Assembly (NCBI RefSeq): GCF_001402915.1
Contig: NZ_CP012945.1
Span: 4,131,501 to 4,195,500, forward strand
Reading direction: 5' to 3'
Length of the DNA: 64,000 nucleotides
Origin: Devosia sp. A16
Lineage (GTDB): Bacteria > Pseudomonadota > Alphaproteobacteria > Rhizobiales > Devosiaceae
Position 1 is the first letter of the stretch, and each line of letters opens with the position of its first letter. The notes under the pieces are model-generated. The model worked only from the letters and a program-made list of their open reading frames with translations. It did not search any database and was not told where the DNA came from. The position numbers and the translations under genes are program-made. Shown here in pieces: positions 41,306 to 48,998 of the stretch.

Positions 41306-42184
41306 TCAGGGCCCTGGCAGCACTTCGTCGATCCGCCCGGTCAGATAGTAACCGAGGAGGCCGGCCCATTCGCGCAAGGCGAGGCTGCTCACCGAGATAT
41401 TTTCGGTGGATTGATCCGGCTTGATCCCCAGACCTTCGGCGCCGCTGGCCAGGTAGTCTGCCGGCCAGGGGACCACCGCGAAATCCGCCTTGCGAAACAA
41501 CCCTACGGCGCGCGGCATATGAAACGCCGAGGTGACCAGAAGCCAGGTCTGCCCATCGGTCGCTCCTGCCAGTTGCTTGGCGAACCGGGCATTTTCTTCC
41601 GTGTTGCGGGATTGGTCGTCGGTCAGGATTCGCTCGGGTGCGACGCCGAAAGCCTCGAAAAATCGCTTACCCGCCAGCGCTTCCGGCTCCTGCTGGACCA
41701 GCGCTGCGGGGCCGCCCGCAATGACGATCCGCGCGCCGGGATGTCGAATCGCGAGGCGCAGGGCCTCGACATAGCGGTCGCCCGAGCGGTTCAGTTCGTA
41801 GCCGCGGCGCACCGAGTTCACCTCGCCATCCATGCCGCCGCCCAGCACCACGATCCCGTCGACCTGCGCCGGCTCGGATGGTCGCTCGAACCGCTGCTCC
41901 AGCGGTGTGATCAGCACATAGCCGAACGTGGTGAAGCAGCAGACGAACAGCAGCAGCAGGGCCGATCCGACAAAGAGGCGGGCGATCCACCGGCGCTTCA
42001 GCCAGCTCAGCGCCAGCCCGGCCAGCAGCAGCAACACGACCAGCGACAACGGTTGTACGACGAGCCAGAAGATCCGCGTGAGATAGGGGAACAGGGCAGG
42101 GTCTCCACGGCGGTCGGTCTGTGGGAGAAGTCTGTTTCCGGCTTCGAAGCGTGGATCAAACCCGGCGTCCTCGCACCCTGCCAT
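41306..42184 (-). CDS. YdcF/DUF218-family membrane protein
   Basis: About 292 residues from the ATG at 42184, though the first 30 or so residues look non-coding and the true start may lie closer to the first membrane helix (FWLVVQPLSLVVLLLLAGLAL). A second helix follows (LFVGSALLLLFVCCF). The DUF218 domain shows DGIVVLGGGMDGEV, RIVIAGGPAAL, SRNTEENARFAKQL and LLVTSAFHMPRAVGLFR. SanA/YdcF/ElyC relatives act in envelope polysaccharide metabolism. It lies next to tRNA-Arg and close to the glycan block. Confidence 0.85.
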   Translation of the reverse strand: MAGCEDAGFDPRFEAGNRLLPQTDRRGDPALFPYLTRIFWLVVQPLSLVVLLLLAGLALSWLKRRWIARLFVGSALLLLFVCCFTTFGYVLITPLEQRFERPSEPAQVDGIVVLGGGMDGEVNSVRRGYELNRSGDRYVEALRLAIRHPGARIVIAGGPAALVQQEPEALAGKRFFEAFGVAPERILTDDQSRNTEENARFAKQLAGATDGQTWLLVTSAFHMPRAVGLFRKADFAVVPWPADYLASGAEGLGIKPDQSTENISVSSLALREWAGLLGYYLTGRIDEVLPGP

Positions 42185-42346: not shown

Positions 42347-44128
42347 TCATGCCGAGGGAGCCGGCTCGAACAATTGCCGGTACGATGGGCTGGTCAGCAA
42401 AAGTTCGTCATTGGTGCCCGCCGCTGCGATCCGGCCGGCGTCGAGCACCAGCACGCGGTCGGCATTCTCGACGGTCGAGCGGCGATGCGCGATCAGCAGC
42501 GTCGTTCGGCCGGCCATCAGCCGGCGCAAGGCGGCATGGACGTGCCGTTCGGTTTCACCATCCAATGCCGACGTCGCCTCGTCGAGGATGAGGATCGGCG
42601 CATCCTTGAGCAGCGCCCGGGCGATGGAGATGCGCTGCAGCTGTCCGCCCGAAAGTGTCGACCCGCGTTCGCTGACCGGCGTATCCCAGCCCAGCGGCAG
42701 GGCCTTGATGAACGGCAGCGCTCCGGCTGCCTCCGCCGCCGCCTCGATCTCGAGATCGGATGCCCCCTCGCGACCTAAGGCTATGTTCTGCCTCACTGTG
42801 CCTGCGAACACTGCCGGGTCCTGGCTCACCACGGCGATGCTGCGGCGCAGGCTGGCGCGGTTGACGGTCGAGATATCTGTGCCGCCGATGCTGATGCCTC
42901 CCTGGCGTGGAGCGTAAAAGCCCTGCAACAATCCGGCGATGGTCGACTTGCCCGCCCCTGAAGCCCCCACCAAGGCTGCGACTTCGCCGGGCGCGATCGA
43001 GAGCGAGACTCCATCGAGCACCGGGCGGCCCGGTCCATAGTCGAAGGCTACGTCGGAGAAGCTGATCGGGCCGCGGGCCGTCGCCAGATCGGGGCGTGGA
43101 TCGAAATCCGGCTCCGGTTCCGGCTGATCGAGGAAATCGTACATCTTTTCGATTCCCACGATATCGCGCTGCAGCAGCACATGGGCCTTGGCCAGGCGCT
43201 TGGCCGGCTCGTAGGCGAGAAGAAAGGCCAGGATGAAGGCGATGAACTCCCCGGCCGACTTGTCCGCAGCGATCGTCTGCCAGCCGGAATAAAGGATGAA
43301 GCCGGCAATCAGGACGCCGCCGAGCCCCTCCATCAGCGGCGACGTCCAGGCGCGGATGCGCACCACGCCGTTGGCCCGTCCCAGCGAATCGCGGCTGGCC
43401 GCCTCGAACCGCCTCCGCATCGCGTCCTCGGCGGCATACGACTTCACCACCCGCACCCCTTGAACCGTCTCCTGCATCGACTGGATCACGCCGGCGACGC
43501 TCTGCTGCTCGCGCGCCGCGAGATCGCGGATGCGGCGCATGATACGGTTGAGGCCGAGCAGGGCGAATGGCGCCACGAGGATGGTGGCGAGGCCCATGGC
43601 GACGTCCTGGGCGATCATTACCGCGGTCAGCAGGATCACCGTCAGCAGGTCGCATCCGACGCTGGTCGAGATCCGCACCAGTACGTTGCGGGCGGCGCCG
43701 GCATGGCCGATGAGGCGGTTGATCAGCTTGGCCGAGTGCGAGCGCGCCACATCATCGACCCCGAGCGTCAGCACCTTGTCGAAGATGCGGCGCTGCAGCC
43801 CGGCGACCAGTTCGTTGCCGACGCCGGCAAGCAGCACCGTCTGGCCGTAATCGGCGAGCCCCCTGGTCAGTGAGACGGCGAGGACGGCGCCGGCGGTCAG
43901 CCACATGGCCGGTTGCGCACGAGCAACCAGCACGTCATTGACGACATGGCGCATCAGCCAGGCCAGCGCGGCGGTGGCCACAGCCACCAGCACCATGCAG
44001 ATCACCGCCCCGAAATAACTGGCCCGGCGCCCGCCTATCGCTTCGGCCAGAAGTCGCCTGACCACCGGCAACTGACCCGGCTTCGGGATGCTTTCCACCC
44101 GCGGCTTTCGGCTGTTGCTGGTCGTCAC
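42347..44128 (-). CDS. MsbA-like ABC exporter (fused membrane and ATPase domains)
   Basis: About 593 residues: an N-terminal six-helix ABC-exporter membrane domain (to about 310) and a C-terminal ATPase. Walker A is ALVGASGAGKSTIAGLL, Q-loop AVVSQDPAVFAG, signature STLSGGQLQRISIARALL, Walker [13 protein letters not shown] and H-loop LLIAHRRST. It works as a dimer to flip lipids, lipid-linked glycans or peptides across the inner membrane. It is divergent from the large glycosyltransferase-like gene, so a glycolipid substrate is likely by context. A GTG at 44128 and a TTG at 44188 are both possible starts. Confidence 0.9.
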   Translation of the reverse strand: MTTSNSRKPRVESIPKPGQLPVVRRLLAEAIGGRRASYFGAVICMVLVAVATAALAWLMRHVVNDVLVARAQPAMWLTAGAVLAVSLTRGLADYGQTVLLAGVGNELVAGLQRRIFDKVLTLGVDDVARSHSAKLINRLIGHAGAARNVLVRISTSVGCDLLTVILLTAVMIAQDVAMGLATILVAPFALLGLNRIMRRIRDLAAREQQSVAGVIQSMQETVQGVRVVKSYAAEDAMRRRFEAASRDSLGRANGVVRIRAWTSPLMEGLGGVLIAGFILYSGWQTIAADKSAGEFIAFILAFLLAYEPAKRLAKAHVLLQRDIVGIEKMYDFLDQPEPEPDFDPRPDLATARGPISFSDVAFDYGPGRPVLDGVSLSIAPGEVAALVGASGAGKSTIAGLLQGFYAPRQGGISIGGTDISTVNRASLRRSIAVVSQDPAVFAGTVRQNIALGREGASDLEIEAAAEAAGALPFIKALPLGWDTPVSERGSTLSGGQLQRISIARALLKDAPILILDEATSALDGETERHVHAALRRLMAGRTTLLIAHRRSTVENADRVLVLDAGRIAAAGTNDELLLTSPSYRQLFEPAPSA

Positions 44129-44382
44129 GCCTGTTGGTCCACTTCCCGCCAGTGCCCGGTCAGTACCCCTGAAAGCGGGCGCTGACAACGTCCTCGGCCC
44201 CGCGTTGCGGCCTCCCGGTAGGCATGTGGATAGCCCGGTCAGTCATTTCAGGTTCAGGAAGAACGTCTTAGCGCTGGCACTATTGTCACTTTCGATCGCC
44301 GACAGTCGTCTGCACACGGCAATGGCGTGTTCGAGGCCGAATACCGTGATAACGATTGTCATTACCCTGGTGCACGCGTTCG

Positions 44383-47300
44383 ATGCTTCACGCCCGAATA
44401 TTCACCGACAGCGTCAGCTTCACCGACATCTCGCGGTTCGGCGTTGAAGGAATGCAGGTTACGCCGACAAGGGGGTGGCTCTACCAGCCCTGCGACGTCG
44501 CCATCATGTACGGCCTTGCCAATCCGCAGCGTCGGTCGCTGCAGGGGCAACTGCGCAACTCCATTTACCGCGAGCACAAGGGCCCCATCGTCGTCATCGA
44601 GAGCAGCCTGCTCGGGCGCAGCTTCAGGCCGGCGCTGCCGAACTGGCTGGCGGCGTTGCGTCGCCGGCCCCTCAGACCGCGACAGGTCCACCCCTATTTC
44701 AGGGTGGCGCTCGATGGCGCGCTCGGCGACGATGCCGACTTTTGCGCCGCAAACAGCCCGCCGGATCGATGGGAAGCCCAGCGCCGGGAACTGGGCCTCG
44801 AGGTTGCAGCCTATCGCCGCTCCGGTCGGCACGTGCTGATCCTGGGACAGGTCGGGCGGGACGCATCGTTGCGCGGCCTCGATATCGCTCAATGGCTGGG
44901 AGAAACCGCGAGGGCGGTACGCGAGCGATCCGATCGGCCGATCCGCGTGCGGTTGCATCCCAGCATGCGCTGGCGCGACCGGGAGAAAGCCATTGCGGCC
45001 TGCAGCGAGGTTGCCGATCTGACGATCTCGCCGATCGAGAACACCTTCTCCGCCGACATCAACGATGCGTGGACCTGCATCACCTACTCATCGGGCGGCG
45101 CCGTGGATGCGCTGTTGGCCGGCGTACCGCCGATCTGCCTGTCGCCGGCCAATCTCGCCTATCGTCTCTGTTCCACGAGCCTCGACGACATCGAGGCGCC
45201 GCTGGAGCCGGATCGCGCCCAGTTCCTCTGCGACCTGGCCTACAGTCAATGGACCCCCGTGGAGATGGCGAACGGTGCCGCCTGGCGACATCTGCTGCCG
45301 GCGATCGAGCGGCGGCTCGGCGAAACGGCCGAAGCTCGGGCGGCGCAGCGCCTGCCGGGCGGCGACCTTCCAGCGCGCCGGCGGCGCCAGCTGATCTGGC
45401 GCCTCAATGCCTTCACCTGGCTCGGCCAGGTGCTGCCCAAATCCAGTCACGCGCTGCAGGGCAGGGCGGAGGCCCTGCTGCGCCTTGGCCATGCGGTAGA
45501 GGCCAAGGCGACGTTCGAAACCTGGCAGCGGCTGCGGCCCGACCGGGCGTCGGCCTTTCGGGGCGCGGCCAAGGCCGCCGAGCAGCTGGAACTGTGGGAA
45601 GATGCGCTCGCCGCCTGGGGTGTAGTCGGCAGGCTCAGGCCGCAACAACTCGGGGCGCTGTCGGGCGTCGGCCGGGCGGCGCTGCGGCTCGGTCGGCTCG
45701 ACGAGGCCGAACTTGCCTATCGCAAGCTCACGGCGCTCGCTCCGGATCTGGTGGAAGGGCTTCGCGGTCTTGAGCGGATCACCAACGAGCGCGGCAACTG
45801 GGCCGAAGCAATCGAGCTCCAGCGCCGGATCTGGGCGTTGTCGCGCGATGCTGCCGTGGCCCAGCGGCATGCGCTCCTGCTCTGCCGGTTGGACCGGCTG
45901 GATGAGGCGAAGCAGTTCGTCGCGGCAATAAGCGAGCAGGACGAACCCCTGGCTTACCTGTTCGCCGTGACCCAGCTTTACTCGGCCATGCATGATTGGG
46001 CAGGGATGGACGAGCTGTTGGCACGGCATCGCGCCGTGACCGAAGGCGACTGGGAACTCCTGGGGATGCACGTCACGGCCCTGCGGCGGTTGGGCCGCAT
46101 CGACGATGCCCTGCACCTGGTGCAGCGCAGCTCCGCCGGCAGCAGCACTCAACGTGCGTCGCTGACGATCGGGTGCCTGGTCGAGGCGCGCCGCTATGCC
46201 GAAGCCGACGGGTTGCTGCAGGCCGCCTGGGAACAGGGAACGATCGAGAAGATCGGGGGCGGCAACCTTGCGGCCATGGTGACGGCTGCTCAGCAGATCG
46301 GCGGCGTTCCGCTGGCCAGGTCGGTGCTCGAGGGGTTGCCGATCTCGGCGGGGCGAGCAGGCCGGGCGCTGAAGCTGAACCGACTGTTTCAGCACCTTCG
46401 GCTCGACAGCTACGAGGCGTTGATCCAGGGCAGGCTGATGACGCCGGACCAGCCGTCGGAACAACGGGTGCTGGTGGCGATGGATGACGAGGGAGCTGCC
46501 GAGGGGACGGACGTCCTGAGAGAGCTTGTCGAGACGCTGGCGCGACATCGTCGCCTGACCCCGGATGCGCACCTGCTCGATGCATCGTTCCTGCTGCAGG
46601 ACGCACTGGAGGTGGCGCTGCGCATCACCGACGCAGCGGACGCAAAGACGCCGTTCTCGCTGCTTCGGCTCGGCGACGGGGAAGGCGCCATGCTGCCTTA
46701 TCGGCCCCAGTTGCAGACGTTCCGAGCCATCGATCTTGCCGAAAATAGCAGGACCTGGTGGGGGCGGGACGGTTCGCCGACGCTCGAACTCGTCGGCGAA
46801 CTGCAACAGGCGATACGCGCCGCGGATGTAATCGGCATCCCCGACCTCGATCGAGCGACCCGCATCTTCTATCAGACGGCGCGAACCGCCTTTCTGGCTA
46901 ACGGTCGAAACATGCGCGGGCTGCTCGCCGCCACGGATTTTGTCGCGACCAACTGCGCTTCCGCCGCCTGGACCACGTGCCACGTCCATCAATCGCTTGC
47001 CTTCTGGGGCTTGTGGGACCTCATTCTGCCGCGTCTCGGCCAGCTCGATCTGATCACCTGCCACGCCGAGCTTGGCGAAGTGCTGGCACGCGCGCACGGC
47101 GTTCGCATCGGCCGGACGCATCGCATTCCCCCGGAGCGTAAATACGCAGCGGCTTTTGCCAATGGCAATGGCGAGCAGCACTTCCCTGCCGTCTTCGAGC
47201 ACTTGCGGGGCGTGCTGCCGGAAACATTGCCGGGGCGAACTGTCCTGGTGTCGGCAGGCATGCTGGGCAAGATCTACTGTCATTGGATCAAGCGGGCCGG

Positions 47301-47499
47301 GGGGATAGCCATCGATATCGGGAGTGCAGCCGATCATTGGTGTGGCTACGGCACCAGAGGCATCGCCGATGTCGCCATCTACCGCTCGCCCACCGGGACG
47401 ACGGACAGGGTGCGCTCGCTCATCGCAGCGCATTGGCGCTATGCGCGACTGCTCGGACCCGATGGTGAGTGTCGCGGCCTCAGGAGTTCCACTGCGTGA
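44383..47499 (+). CDS. Large glycosyltransferase-like / TPR / GT-D-like domain protein
   Basis: A 1038-residue cytosolic protein with three parts. Residues 1-330 resemble the donor-side half of capsule-type glycosyltransferases (HVLILGQVGRDAS, RVRLHPSMRWRDRE, CITYSSGGAVDALLAGVPPICLS). Residues 355-690 are TPR-like helical repeats (EDALAAWGVVGRLRPQQLGALSGVGRAALRLGRLDEAE and similar). Residues about 735-1003 match the GT-D glycosyltransferase fold: FSLLRLGDGEGAML at 758-771 and VLVSAGMLGKIYCHWIKRAGGIAIDIGSAADHW. The start is uncertain (44383, or ATG at 44452). Its stop overlaps the next ATG by one base. Probably assembles a surface glycan with a template-like TPR scaffold; the reaction is unknown. 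Confidence 0.8.
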   Translation: MLHARIFTDSVSFTDISRFGVEGMQVTPTRGWLYQPCDVAIMYGLANPQRRSLQGQLRNSIYREHKGPIVVIESSLLGRSFRPALPNWLAALRRRPLRPRQVHPYFRVALDGALGDDADFCAANSPPDRWEAQRRELGLEVAAYRRSGRHVLILGQVGRDASLRGLDIAQWLGETARAVRERSDRPIRVRLHPSMRWRDREKAIAACSEVADLTISPIENTFSADINDAWTCITYSSGGAVDALLAGVPPICLSPANLAYRLCSTSLDDIEAPLEPDRAQFLCDLAYSQWTPVEMANGAAWRHLLPAIERRLGETAEARAAQRLPGGDLPARRRRQLIWRLNAFTWLGQVLPKSSHALQGRAEALLRLGHAVEAKATFETWQRLRPDRASAFRGAAKAAEQLELWEDALAAWGVVGRLRPQQLGALSGVGRAALRLGRLDEAELAYRKLTALAPDLVEGLRGLERITNERGNWAEAIELQRRIWALSRDAAVAQRHALLLCRLDRLDEAKQFVAAISEQDEPLAYLFAVTQLYSAMHDWAGMDELLARHRAVTEGDWELLGMHVTALRRLGRIDDALHLVQRSSAGSSTQRASLTIGCLVEARRYAEADGLLQAAWEQGTIEKIGGGNLAAMVTAAQQIGGVPLARSVLEGLPISAGRAGRALKLNRLFQHLRLDSYEALIQGRLMTPDQPSEQRVLVAMDDEGAAEGTDVLRELVETLARHRRLTPDAHLLDASFLLQDALEVALRITDAADAKTPFSLLRLGDGEGAMLPYRPQLQTFRAIDLAENSRTWWGRDGSPTLELVGELQQAIRAADVIGIPDLDRATRIFYQTARTAFLANGRNMRGLLAATDFVATNCASAAWTTCHVHQSLAFWGLWDLILPRLGQLDLITCHAELGEVLARAHGVRIGRTHRIPPERKYAAAFANGNGEQHFPAVFEHLRGVLPETLPGRTVLVSAGMLGKIYCHWIKRAGGIAIDIGSAADHWCGYGTRGIADVAIYRSPTGTTDRVRSLIAAHWRYARLLGPDGECRGLRSSTA

Positions 47500-48998
47500 T
47501 GGAACCTGAACTCGCCGTCGTCGTGCTGTCGGTCGGCGCGCCGCCGGAACTGCGGCTCGCGATAGACTCGCTGCTCAGGCAACCCGAGCCGCTCGAGATC
47601 GTGGTGGTCAACTCCGGTGGCGGGAAGCTCTCCGGCCTGGTGCCGGATGGGCAGGGTATCCGAAGCATCGAGATCCCCGAACTGCTTTGGCCCGGTGCGG
47701 CGCGCAATGTCGGTATCCGAGCGACACGGGCGCGCTGGGTGGCCTTTCTTGCATCCGACCTGATTGCGGCGCACGATTGGGCGGCCGAGCGCCTCGCCTT
47801 GCACCGGGCGGGCAAGAGCGCTGTGGCATCCGCGGTCGGTAACAGCCAGACCCGCAACATTTTTGCTTGGGCCGCCCATGTCACGCTGCATGCGCGGCGA
47901 ATGGCGGGCCTGCCGAAGCGAAAGGCGCATCGATATGGTGCCAGCTACGAGCGCAGCCTGTTCGATCGCTATGGGCTGTTCAGGGAAGACCTGCGCATAG
48001 GCGAGGATACCGAATTCCACCGGCGTATGCGCCGCCGGGACCGCCCGGTCTGGGCGCCGAAGGTGGTTGCCGCGCATCGCTATCCCCAGACCTGGCGCGA
48101 TCTGATCGCCGAGCATAAGGTCCGCGGCGAGCGTTGGGCAGTGCATTGGCCGACACCGCAGCGCGGAACATGGTTCGGGCGGGGGCTCAAGCGCTTCGCG
48201 GGAACCCTGCCGCTCGCACTACGTGCCTCGCGGGGGCGGGACAGGCTGATGGTGCTGGCCGCATCGCCGGTCGTCCTCGCTGCCTGTCTGGCGTACGAAG
48301 CGGGTGCGTCGAGCGCCGGTGCCCATAAGGCAGCCACGCGCCGCTACACGGTCGCCGTTGCGATACTCGACCGCGACGACTGGTCGGCCAATACGGATGT
48401 CATCGTGCTGGTCGATCCGGTGATGCGCCATCTGACCTGGGTGCCGCGAGATCTGTGGGTGCCTGGGCTCGACGATCGCCTCAATGCCGCGTTCGCGCGG
48501 GGCGGTGGGGCGCTTTTGATAGAGGCGCTGGCCGAGGTTCGGCTGCCGGTCGAAGGGCTGCTGTGCCTGCGCAGAGCCGCGACCGAGGCGGCGCTGGCCG
48601 GGGTCGAGGCGACTGTCCCGGTGAGCGAGCCGATGGATTTCTGGTACCCCCTGACGCCGACGCAGCCGATCGAGGCGGGGCGCAAGCAGATATCGTTTCG
48701 CCCGCCGAGCGAGCGCCTGTCCGGCGAGCGGCTGCATCAATGGATCGGGGCGCGAACCCGGGTCAGCGGAGCAGGATCGGATCTGCAACGGATCGAACGT
48801 CAGCAGGTGCTGGTGCAGGCGCTGTTGGCAGACGGCTTCGATTTTGCCGCCACGCTCGCCGACCGGGGCTTGTTCAGAACAACTGGGCGCGACCCTATCC
48901 CCATTCTGAGCATGGTCCGCCGGGATTGGAGCTGTTGCCTCTTCGACTCCGTGTCGGACGCCACTATCAACGGAAAGGCGGTGCTGATCCGATCATAG
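47499..48998 (+). CDS. GT2 glycosyltransferase fused to a LytR-CpsA-Psr (LCP) domain
   Basis: A 499-residue protein. Residues 1-215 form a GT-A fold family 2 glycosyltransferase (LAVVVLSVGAPPELRLAIDSLL, GAARNVGIRA, LRIGEDTEFHRRMRRRD). Residues about 247-268 are hydrophobic (LMVLAASPVVLAACLAYEAG) and could span the membrane. Residues about 283-447 match the LCP phosphotransferase domain: NTDVIVLVD, LTWVPRDLWVPG, DRLNAAFARGG and the closing RIERQQVLVQALL, with the conserved Asp and Arg residues. LCP enzymes attach lipid-linked glycans to cell-wall polymers, mainly in Gram-positives. The ATG at 47499 has AGGAG upstream and overlaps the previous stop (TGATG). Confidence 0.8.
   Translation: MEPELAVVVLSVGAPPELRLAIDSLLRQPEPLEIVVVNSGGGKLSGLVPDGQGIRSIEIPELLWPGAARNVGIRATRARWVAFLASDLIAAHDWAAERLALHRAGKSAVASAVGNSQTRNIFAWAAHVTLHARRMAGLPKRKAHRYGASYERSLFDRYGLFREDLRIGEDTEFHRRMRRRDRPVWAPKVVAAHRYPQTWRDLIAEHKVRGERWAVHWPTPQRGTWFGRGLKRFAGTLPLALRASRGRDRLMVLAASPVVLAACLAYEAGASSAGAHKAATRRYTVAVAILDRDDWSANTDVIVLVDPVMRHLTWVPRDLWVPGLDDRLNAAFARGGGALLIEALAEVRLPVEGLLCLRRAATEAALAGVEATVPVSEPMDFWYPLTPTQPIEAGRKQISFRPPSERLSGERLHQWIGARTRVSGAGSDLQRIERQQVLVQALLADGFDFAATLADRGLFRTTGRDPIPILSMVRRDWSCCLFDSVSDATINGKAVLIRS

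Follow-up and report, generated by a model that had tools for sequence, protein, structure and literature searches.

A GT2 glycosyltransferase fused to a predicted LCP-fold domain, probably cytoplasmic, in Devosia sp. A16

The window analyzed here, a stretch of 64,000 nucleotides from Devosia sp. A16, encodes a 499-residue protein in which a GT2 glycosyltransferase is followed by a domain related to the LCP (LytR-CpsA-Psr) family. LCP enzymes are usually regarded as extracytoplasmic cell-wall ligases. We lean slightly towards reading the protein as a GT2 that carries a C-terminal member of a cytoplasmic LCP-fold subfamily at the inner face of the membrane, where it would act on a lipid-pyrophosphate-linked glycan. 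The features of the locus are as follows.

47499..48998, + strand: GT2-LCP fusion gene, 499 amino acids; open frame with two Pfam domains over cut-off
47499..48143, + strand: GT2 domain, residues 1-215; PF00535, and solved glycosyltransferases match the full-length model
48246..48302, + strand: hydrophobic segment of the GT2, residues 250-268; Kyte-Doolittle mean 1.88
48345..48995, + strand: LCP domain, residues 283-499; PF03816, predicted model and Foldseek matches
44383..47499, + strand: partner gene encoding, in order, about 337 residues, TPR and a GT-D-like domain; overlaps the fusion gene translationally
42347..44188, - strand: MsbA-like ABC exporter, divergent, beside the gene pair; TIGR02203 460.5 bits, below the cut-off of 602

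The fusion gene, its neighbors and its recurrence

In the Pfam search, Glycos_transf_2 (PF00535) matched residues 7-127 (E 2.2e-12, 47.7 bits against a cut-off of 23.3) and LytR_cpsA_psr (PF03816) matched residues 311-443 (E 4.4e-6, 27.4 bits against a cut-off of 24.6). Both domains thus exceed their cut-offs, in agreement with the original prediction that a single alphaproteobacterial protein contains a GT2 and an LCP domain. The LCP-homologous unit comprises 217 amino acids and extends from about residue 283 as far as the C-terminus, stand-alone relatives aligning to the end. Of the extent first proposed for it, 283-447, the start was retained and the end was not, since the unit reaches the C-terminus. 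The hydrophobic segment expected at about 247-268 was present, with its limits corrected to residues 250-268. The fusion protein is the sole PF03816 match in the Devosia sp. A16 genome (5.03 Mb, single contig), and no canonical LCP was found elsewhere in it by this search. For the GT2 part, 6yv7 was the best PDB match to the full-length model (E 2.8e-12); the best 28 PDB matches are all glycosyltransferases by title, which we took as indicating a GT-A-like fold. The ED motif, presumably the base, is retained in 11 of 11 rows of the GT2 alignment. In the DXD motif, which we take to be the metal motif, the first Asp is replaced by Ala in all 11 rows and the last Asp is retained.

The fusion gene begins at a TGATG junction, where its ATG and the TGA of the preceding partner gene have one base in common. 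The ATG start of the partner gene was chosen in this analysis; the listed frame starts at 44356. No Pfam family was found at E<=0.1 for the first ~337 residues of the partner protein (window 44389-45400). The pair of partner and fusion genes is also present in Devosia sp. 66-14 (L074) and in L064 and L065 of another genus. The MsbA-like exporter neighbors the pair in L074 and L023 and is not part of it in the other genus. A DUF218/ElyC-like protein (41306-42184) adjoins the gene pair together with the exporter, and both are conserved in L074.

The nearest named relative is a full-length fusion in Devosia sp. 66-14 (L022), 85% identical over all 499 residues. Two further fusions are interrupted by contig ends: L023 (86%, residues 1-366) and L024 (73%, residues 127-498). 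In the relatives search, 14 of 101 genomes matched the fusion protein; it is whole in two (G000 and G011) and split over contigs in a third (G014), and the remaining matches are a decayed LCP remnant in G005 and the GT2 part in 10 others. Outside the genus, L061 and L062 are fusions in another genus (g76) of the same order and share about 60% identity with the window protein along its full length. A single origin of the fusion has weak support (64/56) in a tree, where the five fusions fall on one side of a branch. The NG86 dN/dS ratios between the window protein and L022 are 0.141 for the GT2, 0.123 for the linker and 0.108 for the LCP domain. Purifying selection is acting on both halves of the fusion.

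A trivial explanation of the protein would be that its LCP match is spurious or that its two parts were joined in assembly. It could draw on the margin of PF03816 over its cut-off, just 2.8 bits, and on the NCBIfam LCP model TIGR00350, with which the fusion protein scores 21.8 bits, under the cut-off of 62.3. Against this, the fusion recurs in further assemblies, which span two genera, PF03816 matches 22 of 23 relatives at E<=0.01, the predicted fold matches LCPs in Foldseek, and dN/dS lies at 0.11-0.14. We regard chance or artefact as refuted by these findings and give it hardly any probability. Spread by plasmids or viruses was also rejected: the LCP domain of the window had no match in 72,556 plasmid records, and none of the 24 pattern matches to it in viral contigs was confirmed.

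The contig of L023 (MKTG01000059.1) is filed under 'Burkholderiales bacterium 68-10'. The protein adjoining its fusion is 100% identical to the counterpart in Devosia sp. 66-14 (L074), and L023 is probably Devosia DNA that was misbinned. G005, a genome of the genus to which the window belongs, has a decayed stand-alone LCP copy (L027:2441-2910) and gave no GT2 match at E<=1e-10.

Fold and active site of the LCP domain

The original prediction had proposed structure prediction as a check of the LCP fold, and the outcome supported it. The AlphaFold2 model of residues 279-499, built with 23 rows, has a pLDDT of 84.2 and a pTM of 0.81. Foldseek against the PDB gave 31 matches to this model at E<=0.001, and the next match had an E value of 0.48. 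The best match was 8qty (E 7.4e-11); TagT (6mpt) matched at E 1.1e-9. Titles or gene names identify 21 of the 31 as LCPs; the remaining 10 come from structural genomics, and we take them to be LCPs as well. The TM-scores by query length were moderate, 0.48-0.68. At the level of profiles, the family profile reached S. aureus MsrR (6uex) with an E value of 1.8e-4, and PF03816 was found at E<=0.01 in 22 of the 23 rows of the LCP alignment. The LCP part is thus predicted to adopt the LCP alpha-beta-alpha fold.

All 23 rows of alignment A4 have the same residue at eight positions: D13, D22, R39, R141, D150, R153, R156 and Q157. The reported site residues of Cps2A are D234, D246, R267, R362, D371, R374 and Q378 (PMC7831098). 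The counterparts of all seven are invariant in the 23 rows, where the mapping of Cps2A numbers to motifs was made in this analysis with the aid of profile alignments to MsrR, TagV and TagT; D234 lies outside these alignments, and its counterpart was inferred. In A. oris LcpA, R149 and R266 are reported to be essential for GspA glycosylation and R128 to be dispensable (PMC6381275). The counterparts of R149 and R266, with numbers mapped here, are likewise invariant in the 23 rows. Two other Arg positions are altered. Where canonical LCPs have an Arg ahead of the second Asp (A. oris R128 by our inferred mapping), all 23 rows have Asn. The second Arg of ARxR (TagT R219, mapping also inferred) is retained in two of the 23 rows, those of the window protein and L022. 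The retained Mg2+/pyrophosphate residues would favor catalysis by the domain. The altered Arg positions would fit an acceptor other than peptidoglycan.

Stand-alone relatives, topology and the GT2 partner

The same LCP domain also occurs as a stand-alone protein of about 230 residues, 56-65% identical to the domain of the window. It was found in G281, G236, G669, G405 and other genomes of g76, the genus to which G281 belongs. At least 26 of 146 genomes of this genus matched; the match is nearly full length in 19, of which two have fusions, and partial in seven. A membrane-span-like stretch before the first strand was found in none of 21 stand-alone loci. The highest 19-residue mean was 1.35, at L034, where the frame before the first strand crosses a tRNA gene. 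A stop codon lies 24 residues or less upstream of the first strand in six of the 21 loci. The starts are mainly TTG or GTG, with ATG in four (L035, L040, L044 and L059), and L048 has no ATG, GTG or TTG ahead of the first strand. A tRNA-Pro gene immediately precedes the stand-alone LCP gene at 17 of the 18 g76 loci scanned (L034, L045-L055, L057-L060 and L063). A basic C-terminal tail with two tryptophans is present in all of the 18 g76 stand-alone loci except the truncated L063, and its charge is +8 in both 18-residue stretches computed. The five fusions are without this tail, which may anchor the stand-alone protein to the membrane surface. Because an N-terminal membrane segment is absent from all 21 stand-alone loci, we name the domain an LCP-fold subfamily and not a canonical extracytoplasmic LCP ligase.

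The hydrophobic segment of the fusion has a Kyte-Doolittle 19-residue mean of 1.88 and includes a proline and a glutamate. Its N-side is positively charged, and positive charges are found on its C-side too. In the full-length model (pLDDT 84.5, pTM 0.59), helices 225-243, 247-254 and 256-279 lie between the domains, and the segment is part of the last of these. Hydropathy of the fusion alone could allow one span, that is, a type II reading. GT2 relatives that lack an LCP domain have a corresponding segment, with 19-residue means of 0.77-1.96 over 12 sequences. The same GT2 subfamily precedes a GT-D domain in three proteins (L025, L028 and L029), two of which have a Pfam TPR, and the segment ahead of the GT-D has means of 1.38, 0.77 (weak) and 1.79, respectively. 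Judged by this distribution, the segment is a part of the GT2. Enzymes of the GT-D type would be expected to require sugar nucleotides from the cytosol. Because the segment is shared with GT2s lacking LCP, the GT2 stands before GT-D in other proteins and a TPR/GT-D protein is encoded next to the fusion in the window, we place the LCP domain in the cytoplasm, and an inner-leaflet location seems to us quite likely.

The periplasmic ligase held by one span, as originally envisaged, thus found no support in the stand-alone LCPs, none of which has an export signal (21 of 21 loci), or in the occurrence of the same GT2 before GT-D. These two lines suggest that both domains are probably cytoplasmic, the placement which had been named in advance as speaking against that model.

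The LCP domain is linked to the GT2 subfamily outside the fusions as well. In G236 and G405, a separate gene of the subfamily (49% and 48% identical to the window, respectively) lies upstream of the stand-alone LCP in a same-strand cluster, and in G236 the start of the LCP gene and the stop of the gene ahead of it overlap. In g76, the stand-alone LCP sits elsewhere in the genome from the GT2. We compared the occurrence of the two in this genus, testing 18 of the 19 genomes with near-full-length matches (G1242 left out), six of the seven with partial matches (G1282 left out) and 65 of the 120 without a match. With the two fusions excluded, all 16 genomes that have an intact stand-alone LCP also had the GT2, one of these GT2 matches (G1279) having an in-frame TAG. 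The GT2 was present in two of six genomes with LCP remnants (G1262 and G1288) and in 14 of 65 without any LCP copy. The difference between 16 of 16 and 14 of 65 has a Fisher p of 4e-9, with genomes counted without correction for kinship. In G669, the LCP copy lies at a contig end and a GT2 match was not found. The third gene of the G236 cluster (L066:7766-8479) matched no Pfam family at E<=0.1. A relative of it occurs in eight of ten g76 GT2 regions examined, eight regions being from LCP-bearing genomes and two from genomes without LCP. Since both LCP-less regions have this relative, the G236-type cluster is independent of the LCP.

Proposed function and relation to known systems

We propose that the hydrophobic segment of the GT2 holds both domains to the cytoplasmic membrane, on its inner face, and that stand-alone copies would use their basic C-terminal tail in its place. 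The GT2 and its coupled TPR/GT-D partner would build a lipid-pyrophosphate-linked glycan at the inner leaflet, and the LCP domain would bind the lipid-pyrophosphate end of this glycan. It might then pass glycosyl-phosphate on to a cytoplasmic acceptor, or the lipid-pyrophosphate intermediate might be hydrolysed or handed over. Judged from the sequence, action of the LCP domain on such a glycan appears reasonably probable. A more specific version is put forward as a tentative idea, which we hold to be less probable than its negation: an LCP-fold phosphotransferase may have shifted to the cytoplasmic face of the membrane in a Gram-negative bacterium, joined one GT2 subfamily by fusion or as a partner, and come to transfer glycosyl-phosphate from inner-leaflet polyprenyl-pyrophosphate glycans to a new cytoplasmic acceptor.

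Two other readings were weighed against this. In the model first suggested for the protein, a type II arrangement, the GT2 is cytoplasmic and a periplasmic LCP domain, reached through one span, ligates the finished glycan to peptidoglycan or another envelope acceptor. This topology is that of canonical LCPs in a 2008 survey (PMC2632651). The mean of 1.88 and the positive N-side of segment 250-268 would suit it, as would the retained core catalytic residues and the second Arg of ARxR in the window protein and L022 (two of 23 rows). We nevertheless find it unlikely, because the stand-alone relatives lack an export signal at 21 of 21 loci, the same GT2 stands before GT-D domains, and the segment has positive charges on its C-side as well and is conserved in GT2s without LCP.

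A domain with no catalytic role, a lipid-pyrophosphate-binding module that offers the GT2 its acceptor lipid on the inner leaflet, would also be compatible with the absence of an export signal in the stand-alone copies. Fusion to and co-occurrence with one GT2 subfamily would suit such a module, and the alteration of two canonical Arg positions, one of them to Asn in 23 of 23 rows, also points in this direction. The Asp pair for Mg2+ and the counterparts of the two Arg residues essential in A. oris LcpA (PMC6381275) are invariant in the 23 rows, however, and binding alone would not obviously need them. A purely binding role is in our judgment rather improbable, and we prefer a cytoplasmic LCP-fold domain that acts on the lipid-linked glycan.

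Comparison with canonical LCPs (TagT/U/V, Cps2A and S. aureus LcpA/MsrR) reveals likeness in profile, in predicted fold and in most of the Mg2+/pyrophosphate site. Unlike them, the stand-alone copies here have no membrane span or signal; this subfamily has Asn before the second Asp (23 of 23) and mostly lacks the second Arg of ARxR (present in 2 of 23), is fused to or co-occurs with one GT2 subfamily, and is alphaproteobacterial. A. oris LcpA, described as an LCP phosphotransferase that glycosylates a protein, indicates that the acceptor need not be peptidoglycan (PMC6381275). Its essential R149 and R266 have counterparts here by our mapping, whereas the enzyme itself is extracellular and Gram-positive. 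In the 2008 survey, LCP domains are extracellular behind a membrane segment, and Proteobacteria are without LCP except for one fragment (PMC2632651); a 2025 review links LCP capsule attachment to Gram-positives (PMC12220298). Among the open-access papers listed, no description of a cytoplasmic LCP or a GT2-LCP fusion was found; for the fusion, this agrees with the statement at the outset that no such system was known. Transfer of glycosyl-phosphate by an LCP to a cytoplasmic acceptor was likewise not found described in the literature searched. The protein would thus combine the predicted fold and core site of LCPs with a different place and partner.

The subfamily is rare. PF03816 was found in at least three of 397 genomes of the order sample, all with this subfamily, and in at least three of 385 of the class sample, one of which (G689) is a likely contaminant. 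The PF03816 search of the order missed at least G405, whose copy was found by the subfamily profile. This profile matched at least two of 385 genomes in the class, three of 398 in the phylum and four of 19 in the window's own genus, where G005 contributes a decayed remnant. These prevalences are lower bounds, with up to seven candidates scored per genome in class and phylum and up to 19 in g76. G689 (L075) was set aside as a class member with LCP; its LCP has a membrane segment and an adjoining sortase-like frame in a 1.4-Mb draft. The contig is likely a Gram-positive contaminant, and its LCP a canonical one.

If the proposed placement is correct, LCP chemistry would be separable from the cell wall, the same core site being present with no export signal and with a recurring glycosyltransferase partner. 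The stand-alone protein, of about 230 residues and without a membrane span, offers a simple test of the LCP fold in the absence of peptidoglycan.

The GT2-(TPR)-GT-D proteins (L025, L028 and L029) share the GT2 subfamily of the fusion and the modules of the window's partner gene. They differ in being without LCP and in having these modules on one chain instead of in two overlapping genes. One of them, L025:1001-4690, has a polysaccharide deacetylase (PF01522) in one chain with this GT2, TPR and GT-D, and its contig is filed as Akkermansiaceae.
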